NCBI RefSeq assembly: GCF_002729955.1
Contig: NZ_PBYA01000056.1
Location: 62,001-126,000, forward strand
Length of the DNA: 64,000 nt
Reading direction: 5' to 3'
Source: Salinisphaera sp.
Lineage (GTDB): Bacteria > Pseudomonadota > Gammaproteobacteria > Nevskiales > Salinisphaeraceae
Shown here: piece by piece, positions 2,034 through 64,000 of the stretch
Layout: the number at the start of each line of letters is the position of its first letter
Position numbering within the stretch: the stretch's first letter is position 1
Notes under the pieces: generated by a model
What the model was told of the DNA's origin: nothing
What the model saw: the letters and a program-made list of their open reading frames with translations, nothing else
Database searches by the model: none
Made by a program: the position numbers and the translations under genes

Positions 2034-4077
2034 GTGTTCCCCGCACCCGCGGGGATGAACCGGCCGCTTGGCGAGAATCGCGTTCTCGCTGCCAGTGTTC
2101 CCCGCACCCGCGGGGATGAACCGGCCATGGACACACAGATCAGCCGCATTCTGGCGTGTTCCCCGCACCCGCGGGGATGAACCGGACAGCGACGCGAAGC
2201 GCGAGTTGCTGGAACGGTGTTCCCCGCACCCGCGGGGATGAACCGCCTGTCATTCGGCTCGATGGACGAAGGCCAGTGTGTTCCCCGCACCCGCGGGGAT
2301 GAACCGCGTGGAAGGCGATTCAGAGCGATCAGGCAAAGGTGTTCCCCGCACCCGCGGGGATGAACCGATGACTGGGTCGAAGTCGATCGCGCGATCATCG
2401 TGTTCCCCGCACCCGCGGGGATGAACCGGCACTTGCCGAGCGTATTTGCGCGCGATTGGCGTGTTCCCCGCACCCGCGGGGATGAACCGGCGAGGCATCG
2501 CGGCGGTTTCGAAACCTGGCCGTGTTCCCCGCACCCGCGGGGATGAACCGGTCGAGAGCCGTCTGCGGTGTGAACGCGAAGGGTGTTCCCCGCACCCGCG
2601 GGGATGAACCGGATGGCGCGAACCCGATTGACGCTAATTGCGCGTGTTCCCCGCACCCGCGGGGATGAACCGGCCGGCTTGCTTGTGCAGCGCACCGCGC
2701 AACAGTGTTCCCCGCACCCGCGGGGATGAACCGAGCTCATCGCGCAGATCGAGGCGACCAACAACGTGTTCCCCGCACCCGCGGGGATGAACCGGATACG
2801 AAAATACTTCCCCCGCTCCATATTCCGTGTTCCCCGCACCCGCGGGGATGAACCGGCCCAAATCACCGCCGAAACCGTGCGCGGCTAGTGTTCCCCGCAC
2901 CCGCGGGGATGAACCGCCGGCGCCGAACCCGAAGCCGTCGCAGACGACGTGTTCCCCGCACCCGCGGGGATGAACCGTCCGAGAACATGGTGTTCAACGG
3001 CCTGCCGAAGTGTTCCCCGCACCCGCGGGGATGAACCGTAACTTTTCCTGTATGCGGACGCCTGCATAACGTGTTCCCCGCACCCGCGGGGATGAACCGG
3101 TCGATCTCAAGCGCACCGAAATCGTGCCCAAGTGTTCCCCGCACCCGCGGGGATGAACCGGCCGCACGCACACCACGGTCGAGCTCATCTAAGTGTTCCC
3201 CGCACCCGCGGGGATGAACCGCATGCGGGGCTCCTGTTAAGCGGCGCGGACGCGTGTTCCCCGCACCCGCGGGGATGAACCGCCGGAAGTCGCAGCAGAA
3301 CGCGAAGTTCCACGCGTGTTCCCCGCACCCGCGGGGATGAACCGCAGCTGACCACGACACAGGAAAAGTCGACGGCGTGTTCCCCGCACCCGCGGGGATG
3401 AACCGCTGGGCAGCGCCACCGATCTGGCCGGCGAAGAGTGTTCCCCGCACCCGCGGGGATGAACCGGTCACGAACCAGTCGCAGGCAAACGCGTCGGCGT
3501 GTTCCCCGCACCCGCGGGGATGAACCGGGCCGACGTACGGGCATCACGTTTGCGGAAGCGTGTTCCCCGCACCCGCGGGGATGAACCGTCCGACAAATCG
3601 GCCGTTTCGACGGTCGGGTCGTGTTCCCCGCACCCGCGGGGATGAACCGAAGAAGAAACGCAGCGATGGGCTGCGCGAGTCGTGTTCCCCGCACCCGCGG
3701 GGATGAACCGACGTATCGACGGTGCAGGCAAAGGCCGAAGAGGTGTTCCCCGCACCCGCGGGGATGAACCGTCAAACATGGCCATCGGGAGCGGCATCAA
3801 TCTGTGTTCCCCGCACCCGCGGGGATGAACCGCACAAACGCAAATGCGCGAGCTGGGCGCTACGGTGTTCCCCGCACCCGCGGGGATGAACCGGACTGCG
3901 CCACCCAGGTAGCGCCCTTGAATGCGTGTTCCCCGCACCCGCGGGGATGAACCGCGCCAGAGAGGCAGCGCGCCGAAGCATGGAGCGTGTTCCCCGCACC
4001 CGCGGGGATGAACCGATCCTCGGCCTGGTCGAGCGCGCGGACAACGACGTGTTCCCCGCACCCGCGGGGACGAACTG
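2034..4077 (+). CRISPR. Type I-E CRISPR array, 34 repeats / 33 spacers
   Basis: A 29-bp repeat (starts GTGTTCCCCGCA, ends GGGGATGAACCG) recurs with a 61-bp period from 2034. It contains the inverted CCCCGC/GCGGGG arms that form the hairpin cut by Cas6e. Repeats 1-33 appear identical. Spacers are 32 nt except spacer 21 (before the repeat at 3316) and spacer 33 (before the repeat at 4049), which are 33 nt. The last repeat is degenerate at two bases, marking the leader-distal end. All spacers look different from one another. Orientation matches the cas genes and leader on the left. The many spacers, uniform repeats and intact cas1/cas2 suggest an active locus. Confidence 0.99.
4049..4077 (+). 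repeat. Degenerate terminal CRISPR repeat
   Basis: The final repeat copy ends GGGGACGAACTG instead of GGGGATGAACCG (two transitions near its 3' end) and is preceded by a 33-nt spacer. Decay of the leader-distal repeat is usual, since it is the oldest copy and is not the template for new repeats. Confidence 0.9.
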
Positions 4078-15643: not shown

Positions 15644-15668
15644 TTTTTCGAAACGACCTTTCGAAAAA
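15644..15668. promoter_or_regulatory. Perfect inverted repeat upstream of thiolase
   Basis: TTTTTCGAAA and TTTCGAAAAA are perfect 10-bp arms separated by CGACC, 122 bp upstream of the thiolase ATG. No gene ends just before it on either strand, so an operator is more likely than a terminator. Confidence 0.4.
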
Positions 15669-15807
15669 AGCCGTGTCGCAGTATGTTGAGCCGCGTAAAG
15701 GGCGTCAAGCGAGCTCGACGCCGTCGTTTGACGGCCTCACATGAATGGCGCGCGATCCCTTTGTAACGGTATCGCGGCCTCATGCCATGGCGTATCTTAC
15801 ACGCGGT

Positions 15808-15819
15808 GAACGATCGTTC
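15808..15819. promoter_or_regulatory. GAACGATCGTTC dyad operator candidate
   Basis: A perfect 12-bp palindrome 43 bp upstream of the flavoprotein start. The same sequence occurs at 29094, 44066 and 44135, always in promoter regions of acyl-CoA or transport genes. This looks like a TetR-type operator; the regulator is not identified. Confidence 0.55.
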
Positions 15820-15861
15820 GGTATCCTTCACCCCCTGTTGCGAGAACAAAAAGGAGTCTTC

Positions 15862-20046: not shown

Positions 20047-23000
20047 CTATTCGAACCGGTCGTCGCCGATCTGGATCTTCGGCACGGTGTAGTCGGCGCG
20101 GGCCGGGCGTTTGTCGCTCGTATAAAACCGTCGCGTCCGCCCGTCTTCGACGGTATGCGCGCGCTGGATCTGGTTGTCGACCTCGGCGGTATATGGGATA
20201 TCGGCCAATGATCGGCCGAGCGGGTCGACAAACTCGAAGGTTTCACCGAATAGGCCACCGCCGGGCGGAAATTTGTCCATTGAGGTTTTGATCTTGCCCG
20301 GCCCCGTAAACACCTTGTTCCCCGCATGCACGGTGAGCGTGCCCGGACAGGCCACGGTAATCTTGCCGCCTTCGAGCGTGACCGAGGCCCCACCGGCGGT
20401 GGCCAGCTTGACGGCCTTTTTGCCCGCGAACTCGCCTTCGGCGTTGGCACTGGCGATCTTGAGGCTGTCCTTGCTCTGTACCTTCATCTGGTCGGCCTGG
20501 GCCTGCAGGTCCAGGTCGCCGTGGCCGGCGATGAGTTTCAAACCCTCGCCCGAGCCTTGTACGCCGGCCAACACCCCGATGGACTGACCGCTATGGATAT
20601 GCAGCCGTTCGCCGATGGCCCAGTTGCTGTCGGTGCCGCTGGCGACCGTCAGGGTTTCGTCGGCATGCCAGTGCACATCCTGGCCGGCGACGACGCCCAG
20701 GCCGGCCTTGGCGGCGATGGCCAGGATCGGATCGGCCGGGTGGGGGCGTTTGGTGTCGGCCAACGCTGTGTTTTTGTTGTCCGCATCGGCCGTGGCCTGT
20801 TGCCAGTCGGCGGCATCAACCTGCCCTTGAGCGGTTTTCAGTAGGGCCGCGAGTGGGCTGGCGCTCTCGTCGATCGAAGACTGGTTCGCTTTTGCTGCGC
20901 CCAGATGCGCCGCCAGCGCCGTCGTCGTATGCGTGGTCGCGATCTGGCTATAGCTTTCGCCGAGCTGGTTGGCCTGTTTGAGCAGCGCTTGGCCGGCGGT
21001 GAAGTCGCCGGCGGGCTCATTCGCCTGGATGCCATAGGTCGAGAGTAATACGCCACGCTCACCCCGCACCGCGCCGTACGCATCGGTTCTAAGCTCGAAG
21101 CCGGTACCGCGAAAACTGCCACGGAAGTTGTCGGCCTGATGGATCAGATGGCCGAGGTTGAGCTGGCTGTGGGCCTGGGTGGTGGCCAGCTGAATACGCT
21201 GCTGGCCGTCGGTGTCGTCGAACACGAGCTGGTTGTGGCCGCTGCCGCCGAACTCTTGGGTCTTGGTGCCGGACAGGGCCGCGGCATTGCGATGATCGTT
21301 ATCCCCGGCGGCGGCGCCATGCCAGGCCGGGGCCTGGCCGCCGGCGAGATTGCCCTGGGCGGACGGGGCATGGTCTGCGGCTTGTTGGTAAGCCGTGGTA
21401 TCGCTTTCACGCTGCGTGCCGCCGGGCGTGGCCGGCGTGCCGGCTTCGCCCTGGCCGTTGTAGAGACTGCCGGTGACCACGGGGCGATCGATATCGCCGC
21501 CGAGAAACTGCACCAGCACTTCCTGGCCGATGCGCGGGATGAACTGCTGGCCATGGCCGGCCCCGGCATCGCGCTGGGTACAACGAATCCAGCAGGTCAG
21601 GCGGTCGTCGGGTTGATCGCCGCGTTGCCAGTGAAAACGCACCTTGATCCGCCCCAGGGCATCGGTATGCAGGGCATCGGCGCCGACCGGGGCCGTGGCC
21701 CCGTCGGGGCCGACCACGGTCGCGGTCTGCGCACCCGGCGCGGTCGGGCGCGGGTTGAAGCGCAGGCCGGTGTCGTCGGCCAAGACGGGCCGCCAGGGCA
21801 CATCGCGACGGATGGCATCAAAGCGGTTGGCATAGCCTGTTTGCTTCGCCTGGGCGAGCAGGTCGGCATCGGCCTGTTCGCCGTGCGCCGCCGGTATCTT
21901 GCCCAGCCGGGCCTCGACGCGTTTAGCCAGATCATTGGGCAGGTTGTTGATGCCGACATGACTTACGCTCAGCACCAGAAACTGGCGTTTGCGCTCGTCG
22001 GCATCGCCGGTGGCGGCCGACAGCGCGTCGAGATTGGATTCGGTGAGGGTGAAGACATGCCCACAGGCGAGCGTGCGAACGCTGGACTCGCCGTGCCAGG
22101 TCTTGGTGCGCGCTTCGGCGGCTTCCAGGGCCAGGCGGGTATAGCGCTCGGCTTCGGCGTCGCTGGCCCAGGCATAGGGCCCGGCATAGTCGTAGGCTTC
22201 GAGCATGGGCGCATCCTCGGCGCCGTAGCGGGCCTCGGTGGGCAGACCGGCGCTGGCATTGGCCTTGCGCTTGTAGTCGAAGCTGGTGGACGACAGCCGG
22301 GCATAGGGCAGCTGGCGGGTGGCGCCGAACTGCTGGATGGCGTCCTGGGGTTCCTGACTGGCCGCGCGATGAAACCGGATGCCGGCCCCGCCCAGGGCAT
22401 TGGCCGAGGTGACGTCTTCAGGGCGATGGGCGGCATCGGCGAACAGCATGAGCCGATGCCCGGCCGGGGCTTCGTCATCGGTGACGAAATGAAAGCCCAG
22501 CCCTTCTTCGGCGAGCAGCCGGGCCACGAAGTCGTAATCGGACTCGCGATACTGGACGCAATAGCTGCGGGGGCGGGTGTCGTGCAGGAACTCGCCGACC
22601 TCGTCGGCGAGCTGCCAGGCGGCGATCGCGGCGTAGTCGGCAAAGACCTGTTCGACGATCTCGATGACGGTCTTGGCCTGAAACACGCGGTTGTGCCGGC
22701 CGATGGTGAGATACCACAGCCAGGGCACGGTGGTGAGCCGGTAGCGGGCGAGCCCGCCGTCGCCGGAGAGCAGCTCGGCATCGCGTACAAGCCCGGTGCG
22801 CGAGTAGCGGCTTCCATCGGCCAGGGTGGTGATCAGGGTCAGCGGCTCGCCGATGAAGTCGGGCAGGGCGAGCTGGGCATCGGGCGACAGGGCCACGATC
22901 TGGGTGGGATGCACCGACGAGAGTTCTTCGAAGCCCTGCCAGCGTTCGACCATGAGCGACGACACGCCCGCACTGCCGGCGAGGCGATACAGCCGGCTTT

Positions 23001-23058
23001 CGGCCGTGAACAAGGCCGTGAGCTCGGAGGTCAGGGCGTCTCGGGCGGCGAAAGACAT
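20047..23058 (-). CDS. vgrG: VgrG/TssI, type VI secretion spike protein
   Basis: A 1003-aa VgrG. The gp27-like base runs from about 20 to 380 (DYDFVARLLAEEGLGFHF is characteristic). It is followed by the gp5-like OB fold (GRIKVRFHWQRGDQPDDRLT, then FIPRIGQEVLVQFLGGDIDRP) and, in the C-terminal third, a DUF2345 domain with the beta-helix ending in VTLEGGKITVACPGTL. After this comes a tail of about 70 residues (GETFEFVDPLGRSLADIPYT...) like the extensions that recruit cargo in other systems. The protein forms the trimeric tip of the T6SS needle. No other T6SS structural gene is in the window, so this is an orphan vgrG locus carrying its own cargo genes. Confidence 0.95.
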   Translation of the reverse strand: MSFAARDALTSELTALFTAESRLYRLAGSAGVSSLMVERWQGFEELSSVHPTQIVALSPDAQLALPDFIGEPLTLITTLADGSRYSRTGLVRDAELLSGDGGLARYRLTTVPWLWYLTIGRHNRVFQAKTVIEIVEQVFADYAAIAAWQLADEVGEFLHDTRPRSYCVQYRESDYDFVARLLAEEGLGFHFVTDDEAPAGHRLMLFADAAHRPEDVTSANALGGAGIRFHRAASQEPQDAIQQFGATRQLPYARLSSTSFDYKRKANASAGLPTEARYGAEDAPMLEAYDYAGPYAWASDAEAERYTRLALEAAEARTKTWHGESSVRTLACGHVFTLTESNLDALSAATGDADERKRQFLVLSVSHVGINNLPNDLAKRVEARLGKIPAAHGEQADADLLAQAKQTGYANRFDAIRRDVPWRPVLADDTGLRFNPRPTAPGAQTATVVGPDGATAPVGADALHTDALGRIKVRFHWQRGDQPDDRLTCWIRCTQRDAGAGHGQQFIPRIGQEVLVQFLGGDIDRPVVTGSLYNGQGEAGTPATPGGTQRESDTTAYQQAADHAPSAQGNLAGGQAPAWHGAAAGDNDHRNAAALSGTKTQEFGGSGHNQLVFDDTDGQQRIQLATTQAHSQLNLGHLIHQADNFRGSFRGTGFELRTDAYGAVRGERGVLLSTYGIQANEPAGDFTAGQALLKQANQLGESYSQIATTHTTTALAAHLGAAKANQSSIDESASPLAALLKTAQGQVDAADWQQATADADNKNTALADTKRPHPADPILAIAAKAGLGVVAGQDVHWHADETLTVASGTDSNWAIGERLHIHSGQSIGVLAGVQGSGEGLKLIAGHGDLDLQAQADQMKVQSKDSLKIASANAEGEFAGKKAVKLATAGGASVTLEGGKITVACPGTLTVHAGNKVFTGPGKIKTSMDKFPPGGGLFGETFEFVDPLGRSLADIPYTAEVDNQIQRAHTVEDGRTRRFYTSDKRPARADYTVPKIQIGDDRFE

Positions 23059-28208: not shown

Positions 28209-29009
28209 TCAGACCTTCATGCCCGGCATGTTCAGCGAGGCGGTGTTGCCACCATCGACCGGCAAGGCCTGGCCGGTAATGAAGCTGGCGTCGTCGCTGG
28301 CGAGAAACGTGATCGCCGCGGCCAGCTCTTCCGGCCGGCCGTAGCGACGCAGTTCGCAGCGCGCGCCAAGCTTGTGAGTCTTGTCGTTCGCTTCGGCATA
28401 GTCGAAAACAGACTTCGTCATGCCCGTTTTGACCAGCCCCGGGCAGACCGCGTTCACCCGTACATTGTACTGGCCCAGGTCGCAGGCACTGGTCTGGGTG
28501 AGGTTGATCACCGCGGCCTTGGATGCGCTATAGGCATTGCCGCCCGCGCCAGAGCGCACGCCGGCAACCGAGGCCGTGTTCACGATCGCACCCGCGCCGG
28601 CATCGCGCATGTGGCGTGCGACCGCTCGGGTGAAATGCATGGTGCCGAACAGGTTCACGTCGACCACGTCGCGCCATGTGTCCAGATCGTTATCGGTGAC
28701 CGGCGCATAGTCGCCGCCGGCAATGCCGGCGTTGTTGCAAAGCACGTGAATCGCGCCGTGTTCGGCGGCAATACGATCGGCCAGGGCGGTGACGGCGGCT
28801 TCATCGCGCACGTCCAGCGCCGAGATTTCGTGGCCGCTACCGGGCAGCATGTCGAGAACCGCCTGAAGCGCGGCTTCTTCGCGGTCTACGAGCACCACGC
28901 GTGCGCCTTCCTCGGCAAAGCGAAGGGCGCTGGCGCGGCCGATGCCGCTGGCCGCACCGGTGACGATCACCGTGCGGTTTTCGAATCGTTTCATCGCGGC
29001 CGCTGTCAT
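28209..29009 (-). CDS. SDR family oxidoreductase
   Basis: A 266-aa short-chain dehydrogenase. TGAASGIG near residue 15-22 binds NAD(P), NNAG is near 90, and the catalytic Ser/Tyr/Lys lie in NTASVAG and YSASKAA. The cofactor-specific acidic VDRE after the second strand suggests NAD(H). The chosen ATG has AAGGAG 7 bp upstream; an upstream in-frame start at 29063 lacks one. It is divergent from the first Liv transporter operon, and both start sites face a shared region with two dyads. It probably oxidises a hydroxyacyl-CoA or alcohol intermediate; the exact substrate is unknown. Confidence 0.9.
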   Translation of the reverse strand: MTAAAMKRFENRTVIVTGAASGIGRASALRFAEEGARVVLVDREEAALQAVLDMLPGSGHEISALDVRDEAAVTALADRIAAEHGAIHVLCNNAGIAGGDYAPVTDNDLDTWRDVVDVNLFGTMHFTRAVARHMRDAGAGAIVNTASVAGVRSGAGGNAYSASKAAVINLTQTSACDLGQYNVRVNAVCPGLVKTGMTKSVFDYAEANDKTHKLGARCELRRYGRPEELAAAITFLASDDASFITGQALPVDGGNTASLNMPGMKV

Positions 29010-29067
29010 TTTTATCTCCTTTGATCGCGCGTCGAATTCTACACAAGGGCCGGGGGGCGTCAACGTG

Positions 29068-29086
29068 GATGAAACTCTGTTTCATC
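29068..29086. promoter_or_regulatory. TGAAAC-N3-GTTTCA dyad
   Basis: GATGAAAC and GTTTCATC are perfect 8-bp arms around TCT, 59 bp upstream of the SDR start. The core TGAAAC-N3-GTTTCA recurs at 34635 and, with one mismatch, at 44157. It fits the PsrA-type GAAAC-N-GTTTC box. Confidence 0.55.
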
Positions 29087-29093
29087 AAAACAT

Positions 29094-29105
29094 GAACGAT
29101 CGTTC
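29094..29105. promoter_or_regulatory. GAACGATCGTTC dyad
   Basis: Perfect palindrome, here extended to 14 bp (TGAACGATCGTTCA). Its centre is 22.5 bp from the centre of the adjacent TGAAAC dyad, and it lies between two divergent genes. Confidence 0.6.
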
Positions 29106-29260
29106 ACGCATTCCCGTGGCTCGAACTGTACCGCCGATAGCGGTATGCAGCACGTATTTTTGGCGCCGCGAATCAGACGGTGCTAGTTTCGATTGCACGA
29201 TGTGCGAGGCATCGATAACAAGTGGCAAAAGCCACGCTAAAACAAACCGGAGGAGACGCA

Positions 29261-30529
29261 ATGAAGCACTACAAGGGGCTCGTGCGACGGGCCGTGGCGG
29301 CAGTTGGGGTGGCAGCGGCGCTGGCCGTGCCAACGCTTGGCAGCGCGGCCGACGACACCATCAAGATCGGCTATATCGACCCGCTTTCGGGGCCCTTCGC
29401 CAACGTGGGCGATGCCGGTCTCAAGCACTTCAAGTATCTGGCCGAGCGCATCAATGCGGACGGCGGCATTCTCGGCAAGGATGTCGAGATCATCGGCTAC
29501 GACAACAAGTCCAGCGCCCAGGAATCGCTGCAGATTCTGCGCGAGGCCGCCGACGAAGGCGTGCAGTACATCACCCAGGGTAATGGCTCGCATGTAGGCG
29601 GGGCGCTGGTCGACGGCGTGGAGAAACACAACCGCCGCAATCCCGATAATCGCATGGTCTTTCTCAACTATGCGGCCGTGGACCCGGCCCTGACCGGTGA
29701 GAAATGCTCGTTCTGGCATTTTCGTTTCGATGCCAACAGCGCCATGAAGCTGCAGGCCATTACCGATTACATGGCCGAGCAGGACGACATCAAGAAGGTG
29801 TTTCTGATCAACATGGACTACTCCCATGGGCAGGCGATCTCGCGTATCGCCAAGGAAATGCTCAAGGAGAAACGTCCGGATATCGAAATCGTCGGCGACG
29901 TGCTGCATCCGGTGGGCAAGGTGAAGGACTTCTCGCCCTATATCTCCCAGATTCAGTCCTCCGGCGCGGACACGGTGATCAGCGGCAACTGGGGCAACGA
30001 TCTGTCGCTGCTGGTCAAGGCCGGCGCCCAGGGCGGTCTGGACGTGGACTGGTACACCTACTATGCCGGCGGCCTGGGCACGCCCACGGCGCTGGGCAAG
30101 GCGGGTGCGGAACACGTCAAGATGCTCACCGAATGGCAGGAGAACCTGGTCGAGGAATACGAAGCACCGGAGCTGCGTGAAATTCTCGAGGAGTTCGAGC
30201 AGCGCTACGAAGGGATCGAGTTCTACTACCTGCGTATCAAGACCCAGATGGACATGCTCCAGCAGGCCATGGAAAAGGCGGGCAGTACCGATCCGCTGGC
30301 CGTGGCGCGGGCCCTGGAAGGCATGACCATGGAAACGCCGTTCGGCACGGTGACCATGCGTGAGCAGGATCACCAGCTGCTGCAGCCGCTGTTCATCTCT
30401 ACCTTCTCGGAAGACTATCCGAAGTACGACTCCGAAGGCTCCGGCCTGGGTTGGGTGATGAACGCCAAGCTCGATGCCGCCAGCACCGCGGTCGACAGCG
30501 TTTGCGAAATGAAGCGTCCGTCGAGCTGA
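29261..30529 (+). CDS. livK: HAAT-type ABC transporter, periplasmic substrate-binding protein (system 1)
   Basis: A 422-aa protein with an N-terminal signal peptide (MKHYKGLVRRAVAAVGVAAALAVPTLGSAA). The mature start DDTIKIGYIDPLSGPFANVGD is the LivJ/LivK pattern for type I periplasmic binding proteins. These bind branched-chain amino acids, amides or aromatic and dicarboxylic acids. GGAGGAG lies 6 bp before the ATG; an upstream in-frame start at 29222 would break the signal peptide. It is the first gene of system 1. The neighbours are acid-oxidation genes, so the ligand may be an organic acid rather than leucine. Ligand residues cannot be read with confidence. Confidence 0.92.
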   Translation: MKHYKGLVRRAVAAVGVAAALAVPTLGSAADDTIKIGYIDPLSGPFANVGDAGLKHFKYLAERINADGGILGKDVEIIGYDNKSSAQESLQILREAADEGVQYITQGNGSHVGGALVDGVEKHNRRNPDNRMVFLNYAAVDPALTGEKCSFWHFRFDANSAMKLQAITDYMAEQDDIKKVFLINMDYSHGQAISRIAKEMLKEKRPDIEIVGDVLHPVGKVKDFSPYISQIQSSGADTVISGNWGNDLSLLVKAGAQGGLDVDWYTYYAGGLGTPTALGKAGAEHVKMLTEWQENLVEEYEAPELREILEEFEQRYEGIEFYYLRIKTQMDMLQQAMEKAGSTDPLAVARALEGMTMETPFGTVTMREQDHQLLQPLFISTFSEDYPKYDSEGSGLGWVMNAKLDAASTAVDSVCEMKRPSS

Positions 30530-34346: not shown

Positions 34347-34785
34347 TGCGTTCGCCGCGATGCATGTTCTGCGGCGCGTCATTCGTCGCAGATGCAACTT
34401 GGCCGCGGGGGGTCGCCCATAGCGGATCGCGCGCCGATTGCGCGGTATCGGCTCGAACGAGGCCCGGCCGGGCCCGGCGTTCGACGTAATCCTCGTGCTT
34501 TCGTCCGGCCCGTTGAGGCGGCGCGAAAGCCCGTCGGACGAACGTTCGATCGTCAATACCCCGCCCGCAAAGCGTTTGCGGTTTTGCCGCCATTTTCAGA
34601 CGGTTGGCCGTGTCGGATTGCTGTATTAGTCAAATGAAACGGGGTTTCACTAGGCTGTTGACGGCGGTTCGCGAGCGTGGCAGCTTTGAACCATAGAAAA
34701 GAAAAATGCCGCCGGGGCACGCGACGCAGATCGCACACAAAAACGCTACCGGAGCACGGCGCATACAATCGGAGGAGATCACCGC
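34347..34785. other. Intergenic region between the two Liv operons
   Basis: 439 bp without a gene. It holds the TGAAAC-N3-GTTTCA dyad at 34635-34649 and a GACGAACGTTCGATCGTC stretch at 34537-34554 with overlapping short palindromes. No clear terminator follows livF1. Confidence 0.45.
34635..34649. promoter_or_regulatory. TGAAAC-N3-GTTTCA dyad
   Basis: TGAAAC and GTTTCA around GGG, the same 12 arm bases as at 29070-29084. It lies 136 bp upstream of the small membrane ORF and 377 bp upstream of livH2. A weak GAACG-type sequence (7 of 12) is centred 22.5 bp downstream, matching the spacing at 29068-29105. Confidence 0.5.
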
Positions 34786-42204: not shown

Positions 42205-42612
42205 CGCGACAGGCAAGGATGCCCGCAAGTATACGTTGCCGCGCAAATCAAAAAATACTAATTTCACGATTAGAGAGTGCCGATCCGAGCTATTTGCCGA
42301 ACGATTGTTCGTTTTATATATCAACGTGAAAGCGTTCGCCTGTGCTGCCGGGTCGCGGCGCAGGCGTAGCGGCGTCAGGGCACTGTTGCCATGCGACTTT
42401 TTCGGTATGGCGCTTGCTTACCGTTATGTCTATCTTGTGTTCGACTCGGGGGCAGGGTGTTTGATCAAAGAGGCTGGATCGCTCGATCGGGCCCACGATG
42501 TCTTTCCAGCGTTGGACGGGCTGGCAACACGGAACCGAAAAATACAAAACCGATATAGCTGCGTCGGATAGCCGGCGCGGCGCCAAAAACTTGTGGCTTG
42601 GGAATAGAGAAA
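42205..42612. other. Intergenic region upstream of IclR gene
   Basis: 408 bp without a gene. It holds a near-perfect CGAACGATTGTTCG dyad (42298-42311). No terminator hairpin after the MFS gene is apparent. Confidence 0.45.
42298..42311. promoter_or_regulatory. Near-palindromic GAACGATTGTTC site
   Basis: Differs from the GAACGATCGTTC motif by one base (C to T). It lies about 300 bp upstream of the IclR start. It may be a weaker copy of the same operator. Confidence 0.35.
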
Positions 42613-43413
42613 ATGCGAAAGACGATGGCGCCGGACGGTCCGGACACCAAGGGGCACAACTACGTCACCGCGCTCGCGCGGGGGCTGGAGCTGTTGCGTT
42701 GTTTTGGCGATGCGGCGGAATATCTTGGTAATGCAGAGCTGGCCAAGCGCACGGATATACCGCGCCCGACAGTATCCCGGCTGACCGCCACGCTGACCCA
42801 GCTGGGGTATCTGCTCTACATGCCGCATCTGGAAAAGTACCGGCTGGGCCCGCGGGTGCTCGATCTGGGCTATCGCTACCTCGCGAGCGAGGGCGTGGGC
42901 AATATCGCCCAGCCGTTCATGCAGGAGCTCGCCGATGCCACCGATTGCATGGTGGCCCTCGGGGTGCCCGAGGGGGCGCATTTGACCTATACCCATGCCT
43001 GTCAGGGCAAGGGCCCGTTGATCTTGCGCCTGCAGGTGGGCTCGCGGGTGCCGATGGGTCTGTCCTCGATGGGGCTGGCGTTTTTGGCCGCCCATGAGCC
43101 GGCCGCCCGCGAGCCCTACTACGAGCGTATTCGAGCGGAAAGCGCCATGCCGTGGTCGGAGATCGAACCGCTGCTCGAACGCGCCTATGACGACTATGCC
43201 CGTTACGGTTTCTGCATGACCGATCGCACCTGGAGCCGGGATATCAGCGGTGTCGGGGTGCCGCTGGTGCTGGAGAACGGCCAGCGCGTGGTGTCGTTCA
43301 ACTGTGGGGGGGCGGCACAACGCCTGACCCGCGAGGTGTTGGTCGACAATCTCGGTCCGCGCCTCAAGCAGGTGGTGGAGCAGGTTAGACAGCTCGTCGT
43401 GGGCGGCGACTGA
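42613..43413 (+). CDS. IclR family transcriptional regulator
   Basis: A 266-aa regulator. Residues about 15-75 form the winged HTH (NYVTALARGLELLRCFGDA, then ELAKRTDIPRPTVSRLTATLTQLGYL), and the C-terminal part (about 85-260) is the IclR effector domain that binds an organic acid or related ligand. IclR proteins often control acid and aromatic catabolism. ATG 42613 has an AGAGA sequence 3 bp upstream; a TTG 15 bp earlier is possible. It is followed 3 bp later by a thioesterase gene, and the ACAD10/11-like cluster lies downstream on the same strand, which it may regulate. Confidence 0.92.
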   Translation: MRKTMAPDGPDTKGHNYVTALARGLELLRCFGDAAEYLGNAELAKRTDIPRPTVSRLTATLTQLGYLLYMPHLEKYRLGPRVLDLGYRYLASEGVGNIAQPFMQELADATDCMVALGVPEGAHLTYTHACQGKGPLILRLQVGSRVPMGLSSMGLAFLAAHEPAAREPYYERIRAESAMPWSEIEPLLERAYDDYARYGFCMTDRTWSRDISGVGVPLVLENGQRVVSFNCGGAAQRLTREVLVDNLGPRLKQVVEQVRQLVVGGD

Positions 43414-43881: not shown

Positions 43882-44065
43882 TGGATTCGTTACACCACGG
43901 GTAACGCCCGTCCAGCTCAGGCGCGGCCACGGGTTGCAGCCCCGTGCGCGCCGTCCGTCGATCGATGCCGTATTCCCGGGCGCCAGGCGTAACCTGCGGC
44001 CCGAGTCTGTCGCGTGCAATAAACAGTCGATTTTTTGCGCGGCAGGGCGTATGGTCGAGGTCGGT

Positions 44066-44077
44066 GAACGATCGTTC
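44066..44077. promoter_or_regulatory. GAACGATCGTTC dyad, distal copy
   Basis: Perfect 12-bp palindrome identical to those at 15808, 29094 and 44135. Its centre is 69 bp upstream of the second copy. Confidence 0.55.
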
Positions 44078-44134
44078 GGTTTCGCCGCACGCGATCGACC
44101 TGCGCAGAGTGGGGTCGGGCTTCGTCGCGAAAAC

Positions 44135-44146
44135 GAACGATCGTTC
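44135..44146. promoter_or_regulatory. GAACGATCGTTC dyad, proximal copy
   Basis: Perfect palindrome 144 bp upstream of the acyl-CoA dehydrogenase start. Its centre is 23.5 bp from the adjacent TGGAAC dyad, nearly the spacing seen at 29068-29105. Confidence 0.6.
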
Positions 44147-44156
44147 ATGCCGAGTC

Positions 44157-44171
44157 TGGAACTGCGTTTCA
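44157..44171. promoter_or_regulatory. TGGAAC-N3-GTTTCA near-dyad
   Basis: Matches the TGAAAC-N3-GTTTCA motif at 29070 and 34635 with one mismatch. Confidence 0.45.
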
Positions 44172-44290
44172 TTAAATTGACGGTCGCCCGCGGCTGTGTC
44201 AGTTTCCGGTCGGTAAAAGAACACGCTTGGGCTTGCCTGCCGTGCGCGGGCCAGTGCGAGCACAACAGTCCGCCACAATGAGGAGAGATC

Positions 44291-45505
44291 ATGCTTGCAC
44301 TATCCAAGCAGGCCGAGGATCTGCACGCCCGGCTGCTCGCGTTCATGGACGAACACGTCTACCCGGCCGAGTCGGTCTACGAACAGCAGCACCAGGAGGC
44401 CGAGGATCGCTGGGCCTGGCCGCCGATCATGGAAGAACTCAAGGCCAAGGCCAAGGCCGAAGGCCTCTGGAACCTGTTCCTACCGGAAAGCGATTACGGC
44501 GCCGGGCTATCCAACTACGACTATGCGCATCTGTGCGAAATCATGGGCCGTTCGCCGATCGCGCCCATCGTTTTCAACTGCAGCGCGCCGGACACCGGCA
44601 ACATGGAAGTGCTCGAGCGCTACGGCAGTGAAGCACAGAAGAAAGAGTGGCTGGAGCCGCTGCTGGAAGGCAAGATCAAGTCCTGCTTCTCCATGACCGA
44701 GCCGGCCGTGGCCTCTTCGGATGCCACCAATATCGCCACCGAAATCAAGCGCGACGGCGACGAGTACATCGTCAACGGCCGCAAGTGGTGGTCCTCTGGT
44801 GCGATGGCGCGCAACTGCAAGGTCGCCATCGTCATGGGCAAGAACGACCCGAACGCCGAAAAGCATCGCCAGCAGTCGATGATTCTGGTGCCGCTGGATA
44901 CCCCGGGCGTGACCATCGAACGGCCGCTGCACGTGTTCGGCTACGACCATGCCCCCAAGGGCCATGCCGAAATCCACTACGACAACGTGCGCGTGCCGGC
45001 CGAGAACCTGATTCTGGGCGAAGGCCGTGGCTTCGAGATCGCGCAGGGCCGTCTGGGGCCGGGGCGTATCCATCACTGCATGCGCACCATCGGCATCGCC
45101 GAGCGGGCACTGGAAGCCATGTGCGAACGGGTGGAAAACCGCGAGGCCTTCGGCCGCAAGATCTCCGAGTTCGACTCCATTCGCAAGAACATTGCACGTT
45201 CGCGTATCGAAATCGAACAGGCGCGCCTGCTCACGCTCAAGGCCGCCAAGATGATGGACGAGGTGGGCAACAAGGAAGCCCGCCAGGAAATCGCCATGAT
45301 CAAGGTGATCGCCCCCGAGATGGCGCTCAACGTGATCGACCGTGCCATTCAGGCACACGGCGCGATGGGCGTCTGCCAGGACACCTTCCTGGCCTCGGCC
45401 TGGGCGAACGTGCGCACCCTGCGCATGGCCGACGGCCCGGACGAAGTGCATCTGGACAGCATCGCCAAGCTCGAGCTGCGTCGCCAGCGCGCGGCCCGCG
45501 GCTAG
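44291..45505 (+). CDS. ACAD10/11-like acyl-CoA dehydrogenase
   Basis: A 404-aa acyl-CoA dehydrogenase-fold protein. [17 protein letters not shown] near 135-150 is the substrate/FAD motif and the C-terminal [21 protein letters not shown] is the hallmark of ACAD10/11 enzymes (in place of YEGTxEIQ). In mammals ACAD10/11 and in Pseudomonas LvaC convert phosphorylated 4-hydroxyacyl-CoA toward 3-hydroxy or enoyl-CoA. GAGGAGAG precedes the ATG by 3 bp. A phosphotransferase and an SDR follow. Electrons, if released, would pass to the ETF encoded here. Family is well supported; the 4-hydroxyacid role is inference from context. Confidence 0.88.
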
Positions 45506-48286: not shown

Positions 48287-48305
48287 AAAAGCCGCTTCAA
48301 AAAAC

Positions 48306-48318
48306 GAAATAGTATTTC
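48306..48318. promoter_or_regulatory. GAAAT-N3-ATTTC dyad
   Basis: Perfect 5-bp arms around AGT, 150 bp upstream of the CoA ligase start. It resembles the GAAAC-N3-GTTTC dyads elsewhere with both inner bases changed, so it is a weak candidate operator. Confidence 0.25.
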
Positions 48319-48468
48319 AAGTTAAAGACGCCAAGCCGCGGCGTCGCCGGTGACCGACCATTCGAGTCGACGGCGGCCTGGCGGCGCCGGCAACGCAAAC
48401 CCTGGCCTGTCGAGCACCGTTCAAGAGTGGGGCAGCGCCAAACGCTGGAAAGCGAGGAGATGACCGTT

Positions 48469-63937: not shown

Positions 63938-64000
63938 AGTCTCCTCCTGCGTGACAGCTTGTTCGTAAAACGCGATTTCGTTGTATGAGCAAAGTAGACC
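63938..64000. other. Upstream region of aldolase gene to window edge
   Basis: Only the ribosome-binding site GAGGAG and AT-richer sequence are seen; no gene start of the next unit is visible. Confidence 0.4.

Follow-up and report, generated by a model that had tools for sequence, protein, structure and literature searches.

Between an SDR-family dehydrogenase gene (28209-29009, minus strand) and the divergent livJ-like substrate-binding protein gene that opens the first liv-type ABC transporter operon (29261-30529, plus strand), two different palindromes lie packed together, raising the question of whether two regulators act side by side at this locus and, if so, which ones. We analyzed the window, a stretch of 64,000 nucleotides (contig C56, bases 62001-126000), together with the 3.84-Mb genome to which it belongs and relatives from the marine gammaproteobacterial genus Salinisphaera, of which the window itself is part. 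One of these relatives, G008 (L096), carries the public title Endozoicomonas sp. G2_2 but falls among the Salinisphaera genomes of the set and is probably misnamed. The comparison confirms that both palindromes are real, evolutionarily conserved sites and putative binding sites of two different regulators. These regulators most likely come from the IclR and TetR families, one from each, and together they would control a cluster of genes for fatty-acid-type breakdown.

Two pairs of palindromes

The first palindrome, an odd-centred dyad GATGAAAC-TCT-GTTTCATC, occupies 29068-29086 (minus strand, centre 29077), and the second, TGAACGATCGTTCA, here called PAL, occupies 29093-29106 (minus strand, centre 29099.5). 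Each is found with 0 mismatches and their centres are 22.5 bp apart, exactly as the initial annotation had described. The recurrence that it placed near 44135-44171 was found at 44134-44173, upstream of the acyl-CoA dehydrogenase gene (ACAD; 44291-45505, plus strand) that is the first of an ACAD-SDR-APH kinase-SurE series. Here PAL2 (CGAACGATCGTTCA, 44134-44147, plus strand) is accompanied by an imperfect dyad (TCTGGAACTGCGTTTCATT, 44155-44173, plus strand) with 2 mismatches among 14 core letters, and the centres are 23.5 bp apart. The order of the two sites on the plus strand is reversed between the pairs, and their order relative to the promoter is identical.

Symmetry by itself makes the pair only slightly unusual: dinucleotide-shuffled versions of the window yield 0.08 pairs per 64 kb, a pair being a perfect 14-bp palindrome that has an 8+3+8 dyad within 40 bp, and outside evidence is therefore needed. 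A scan of the whole genome found 12 dyad sites at up to 2 mismatches versus 1 for the reversed control, with 3 of the 12 inside the window (1.7% of the genome), and 6 PAL sites at up to 1 mismatch versus 0 for the control, with 4 of the 6 inside the window. Both motifs are also kept in non-coding promoter DNA of congeners. Because the sites vary in sequence, the exact combined dyad and PAL pattern was found, among 61 genomes, in this genome only.

An IclR-type dyad at five promoters of an acyl-CoA catabolic island

A dyad matrix of 25 columns was built from 32 sites, most of them from relatives and 3 from the window. Its five top matches in the window score 27.9 (48304), 26.2 (34634), 25.5 (44156), 25.3 (29069) and 23.0 (15648) bits, followed by 15.7 bits (63965) and then nothing above 4.8. 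These five sites, well clear of background, fall one per promoter at five promoters of an acyl-CoA catabolic island of ~40 kb. Besides the SDR and ACAD sites, they are the dyad before the second liv operon (34634-34650, plus strand), the dyad ACGAAATAGTATTTCAA that precedes the AMP-binding acyl-CoA ligase gene (48304-48320, plus strand) and the dyad TCGAAACGACCTTTCGA between the divergent thiolase and NMO genes (15648-15664, minus strand), the last two being absent from the training set of the matrix. At SDR, ACAD and the second liv operon, both the upstream dyad and a TTGACG -35 box are retained in four genomes, this one and those of three congeners. The 15.7-bit match, GTAAAACGCGATTTCGT at the window edge (63965-63981), is a possible sixth IclR site, and dyad-like sites before acyl-CoA dehydrogenase and AMP-ligase genes outside the island (L032 and L033; G000:C43 and C54) may mark further IclR targets.

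The island encodes a thiolase, an NMO-like protein, an enoyl-CoA hydratase, MaoC, EtfA/B, an FAD-dependent (Etf-QO-like) oxidoreductase, an SDR, two liv-type ABC transporters, an alcohol dehydrogenase-like protein, an MFS protein, an IclR regulator, a thioesterase, an ACAD, an SDR, an APH kinase, SurE, an acyl-CoA ligase, a FadB-like protein and an ACAD. The window also contains a CRISPR array (2034-4000; 29-bp repeats GTGTTCCCCGCACCCGCGGGGATGAACCG, 61-bp period), with similar repeats upstream of the G008 island (L212), and, at 20047-23058, a T6SS spike gene of the VgrG type that is followed by a DUF2515 gene.

The dyad is, by its sequence, a predicted IclR-type operator of the KdgR-like "group 2": the matrix fits the published IclR-family consensuses, TGRAACAN1-2TGTTYCA and, for KdgR, RWWGAAACGNCGTTTCAKKA (PMC8222616). 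The candidate binder is the product of the sole regulator gene found in the island (42613-43413, plus strand), which carries IclR HTH and IclR_C domains (PF09339, 1.9e-16; PF01614, 4.3e-15). An ortholog is present in 13 of the 14 genus genomes, and a dyad precedes the neighbouring ACAD gene at 13 of 13 loci, a count that covers the iclR-bearing genomes (all but G001) and includes the G003 dyad, which is seen by alignment and scores under the matrix cut-off. With 48.6 bits against the KdgR family model (cut-off 275), the protein does not qualify as a KdgR ortholog. Against the assignment of the dyad to this IclR, the matrix scan found no dyad upstream of iclR in this genome, although autoregulation is frequent among IclR regulators. 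A PAL-like sequence, CGAACGATTGTTCG, lies ~300 bp upstream of iclR (42298-42311, plus strand), with a counterpart, CGAACGAACGTTCG, in G006 and none in G004 or G008.

The constant position of the dyad just upstream of the -35 box suggests that the IclR protein acts as an activator. In agreement with this, the protein resembles the PcaR/PcaU/PobR subfamily (NCBIfam TIGR02431), of which it is a relative and not a member (136 bits, cut-off 284.75). PcaR/PcaU/PobR proteins are activators. Several KdgR/IclR/AllR-like members with an AT-rich type of dyad are, for their part, repressors, and it is conceivable, if distinctly less probable than activation, that the dyad is a repressor operator from which the IclR protein, repressing all five promoters, is released by acyl-CoA or a related ligand. 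IclR repressors, too, can use sites immediately upstream of -35, and the motif types of the KdgR/IclR/AllR-like members include the AT-rich dyad (PMC8222616). However, the dyad stops a few bp short of the -35 box, with a gap that stays constant, leaving the -35 and -10 boxes and the start uncovered, and the protein is closer to the PcaR/PcaU/PobR subfamily.

A TetR-type palindrome and its candidate regulator

PAL is, in sequence terms, a putative TetR-type operator. Its core equals that of the operator consensus of the TetR protein PaaR, CNAACGNNCGTTNG (PMC6651687), and a literature search for the PAL consensus GAACGATCGTTC found no paper. In a sample of 369 genomes of the class Gammaproteobacteria, 13 carry any exact YGAACGATCGTTCR, and only this genome carries more than one. 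A tetR gene abuts the exact palindrome at 4 of 12 foreign loci; none was found adjoining PAL in the Salinisphaera genomes.

In the island, PAL also occurs just after a -10-like element at the NMO promoter (15807-15820, plus strand) and, as PAL1 (TGAACGATCGTTCG, 44065-44078, plus strand), just after a -10-like TATGGT before ACAD. The NMO site is conserved in three genomes, PAL1 in four, PAL2 in three (G000, G004 and G006) with the variant CGAACGTTCGTTCG in G003, and the SDR site in three, being kept in G004 and G006 and lost beside the SDR dyad in G008. The distance between PAL1 and PAL2 is 69 bp in two species and 80 bp in a third; the values differ by one turn, which, speculatively, would allow looping. 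The sequence GACGAACGTTCGATCG at 34537-34552, which precedes the dyad of the second liv operon by ~100 bp, is invariant in four genomes; it is 2 mismatches from a PAL variant and is possibly a diverged PAL or the site of another regulator.

This genome contains 15 TetRs, ten of which have a clear ortholog in G004 as well as in G008. The TetR encoded on contig C13 alone among the 15 combines G004 and G008 orthologs with a AACGNNCGTT site at its own operon (histidine phosphatase-TetR-APH kinase). The site, ACGAACGTCCGTT, lies between this operon and a divergent SDR gene, 5 bp from TTGACC, and is invariant in 7 of 7 ortholog-bearing genomes (G000, G004, G006, G008, G003, G011 and G012). All five genomes with an island PAL, the G003 variant included, possess the C13 ortholog. 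Among the nine genomes that lack an island PAL, two (G011 and G012) have the ortholog, two (G010 and G013) have a ~44% paralog only and five have neither. The cases of G011 and G012, and the reach of the paralog family (44% identity) into genomes without PAL, count against the C13 protein. The autoregulatory site, ACGAACGTCCGTTA, matches PAL only in the core and one half-site. The C13-encoded TetR is the best fit of those compared, and because the half-site match is incomplete we place its candidacy as the PAL binder only a little above even odds.

A TetR other than the C13 protein, for instance L014, the FadR-type L011, L009 or one outside the comparison, might bind PAL instead, although we regard this as doubtful. 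L014 (G000:C10) has a perfect 20-bp palindrome, TGTAAAACGATCGTTTTACA, ~40 bp upstream of its TetR domain, the 10-bp centre of which is identical to that of PAL, and both L014 and L012 have AACGNNCGTT palindromes at their own promoters; yet both lack an ortholog in G008, which has PALs. L011, whose best solved relative is the lauroyl-CoA-responsive FadR (6EL2), is common to G000, G004 and G008, but its promoters in G008 and G011 bear TGAAACATGTTTCA and not PAL, and PAL-bearing G006 (85% complete) has merely a 50% paralog. Candidates that were set aside are the TetR at C56:47553, which has no G008 ortholog, and the FadR-type TetR on C37, which shows a poorer presence/absence fit and another palindrome at its own promoters. 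TGAAACATGTTTCA is conserved before the FadR-type TetR in L077 (G008) and L158 (G011) and is missing at the ortholog in this genome.

Promoter geometry

The predicted SDR promoter comprises a -35 box, TTGACG (29058-29063, minus strand), and a -10 box, TAGAAT (29036-29041, minus strand), with a 16-bp spacer, both boxes being conserved in four genomes. The predicted -35 box of the ACAD promoter is likewise TTGACG (44177-44182, plus strand). In 7 of 7 instances (three species at SDR, four at ACAD), the PAL centre is 36.5 bp upstream of the first base of the -35 box, whereas the PAL-dyad distance drifts from 22.5 bp (SDR, three species) to 23.5 bp (ACAD, three species) and 24.5 bp (the fourth species), with the dyad centre 14, 13 or 12 bp from -35. 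The constancy of the one distance and the variation of the other are strong evidence that PAL is anchored on the promoter and not on the dyad, though not fully independent evidence, since the two paired promoters may share ancestry by duplication. Across all dyads, the distance from the centre to the TTGAC box is 14 bp at SDR in 8 of 8 genus genomes, 16 bp at the second liv operon in five, 15 bp at the ligase gene in four and, at ACAD, 13 bp in seven and otherwise 11, 12, 14 or 15 bp.

These distances revise the initial annotation, which had proposed a fixed spacing between the two palindromes and a scan of both motifs with their spacing tabulated: the sites exceed their controls, but the tabulated spacing runs from 22.5 to 24.5 bp, and what is fixed is the distance from PAL to -35. 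It had also assigned the pair to the divergent SDR/liv region as a whole, and the fixed geometry belongs to the SDR-facing promoter and not to the divergent liv gene. Its suggestion of two different regulators with adjacent sites, for which it had named TetR/IclR candidates, is supported.

The pairing itself is optional. Three of the five window dyads have no PAL within 150 bp, other Salinisphaera genomes have dyads without an adjoining PAL, and the pair is confined to two promoters in one clade. This bears on whether a single protein, an IclR tetramer, could occupy dyad and PAL as a tandem pair. Tandem IclR sites are commonly 18-22 nt apart (PMC8222616), close to 22.5, but PAL is an even 14 bp and the dyad an odd 19 bp, with different sequences and symmetry; PAL is unaccompanied at NMO, as is the dyad at three promoters, and most genomes with the IclR gene and dyads are without PAL. 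We consider the tetramer very improbable and reject it on the differing sequence and symmetry and the solo occurrences. A reading of the sites as accidental symmetry, or as an RNA hairpin or terminator and not as protein-binding DNA, is more improbable still. GC-rich DNA fairly often contains palindromes of such length, and the window has 16 perfect 14-mers where 8.8 are expected, but the reading is contradicted by sequence-specific conservation across species, by the location upstream of conserved -35 and -10 boxes and by enrichment in one island.

A model for composite control

We assign a probability of about 0.6 to a model, drawn from sequence comparison, in which each pair forms the composite control region of a single sigma70-type promoter, with the IclR protein on the dyad and a separate TetR repressor, most likely that of C13, on PAL. 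The dyad would be the operator of the island IclR (42613-43413), which would bind just upstream of -35, centred at about -49, most likely activate, and serve five promoters, those of thiolase/NMO, the SDR-ETF genes, the second liv transporter, the ACAD-SDR-APH operon and the acyl-CoA ligase. PAL would be the operator of a TetR-family repressor, most likely that of the C13 operon, with its same-core site at its own promoter. PAL right after a -10-like box, as seen at NMO and the distal ACAD promoter, would be in a repressor position. At the paired promoters, where PAL is at about -72 and locked 36.5 bp from -35, a bound TetR would hinder, or help, the action of IclR and of the alpha subunit of RNA polymerase. 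What the comparison shows directly are the sites, their conservation, their geometry and their co-occurrence, and from these we infer the identity of the binders, the sign of regulation and the ligands (acyl-CoAs). PAL was probably gained in one Salinisphaera clade at promoters already bearing the dyad. More tentatively, a TetR at fixed phase (36.5 bp upstream of -35) above the IclR activator could, as a co-regulator or anti-activator, couple two separate APH-kinase/acyl-CoA pathways, a layer added to older IclR promoters in that clade.

The model provides a concrete candidate regulon for the whole acyl-CoA catabolic island, with regulator gene and sites named; our literature search turned up no papers on Salinisphaera regulation. 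It also offers a tractable case of regulatory rewiring, in which, in one clade, an ancestral IclR promoter would have acquired TetR-type control as a second input, at a precisely defined position.

Comparison with known systems

The adjoining ACAD, APH-type kinase, SDR and acyl-CoA ligase genes resemble the Pseudomonas putida lva operon and mammalian ACAD10-ACAD11, a gene set that is a toolkit for 4-hydroxyacyl-CoA breakdown (PMC12440821), and the island substrate may by analogy be of the 4-hydroxyacyl-CoA type. Regulation differs, as no LvaR-type regulator was found in the island. The gathering of a few TetR operators in one beta-oxidation cluster recalls FadR of Sulfolobus acidocaldarius and its 30-kb lipid/beta-oxidation cluster (PMC6449355); there, however, tetR is part of the cluster, whereas the island described here has an IclR as its own regulator and the candidate TetR is encoded elsewhere.

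The dyad is like the group 2 operators (KdgR, IclR and AllR type) in being an odd-centred, AT-flanked TGAAAC-N3-GTTTCA that matches the KdgR consensus (PMC8222616). Unlike the group 2 systems, the regulon here concerns acyl-CoA catabolism and not pectin or glyoxylate, the dyad is placed just upstream of -35, and the regulator is closer to PcaR/PcaU/PobR than to KdgR. PAL, in turn, is like the operator of PaaR from Thermus thermophilus (TTHA0973), whose 14-bp site matches the PAL variant CGAACGATCGTTCG and whose targets are acyl-CoA catabolic genes (PMC6651687); this likeness is one of operator consensus, and the candidate TetR here lies within a histidine phosphatase-APH kinase operon. Set beside these systems, the regulon is new, but its regulators are of known kinds, and the whole is an ordinary kind of bacterial gene switch.
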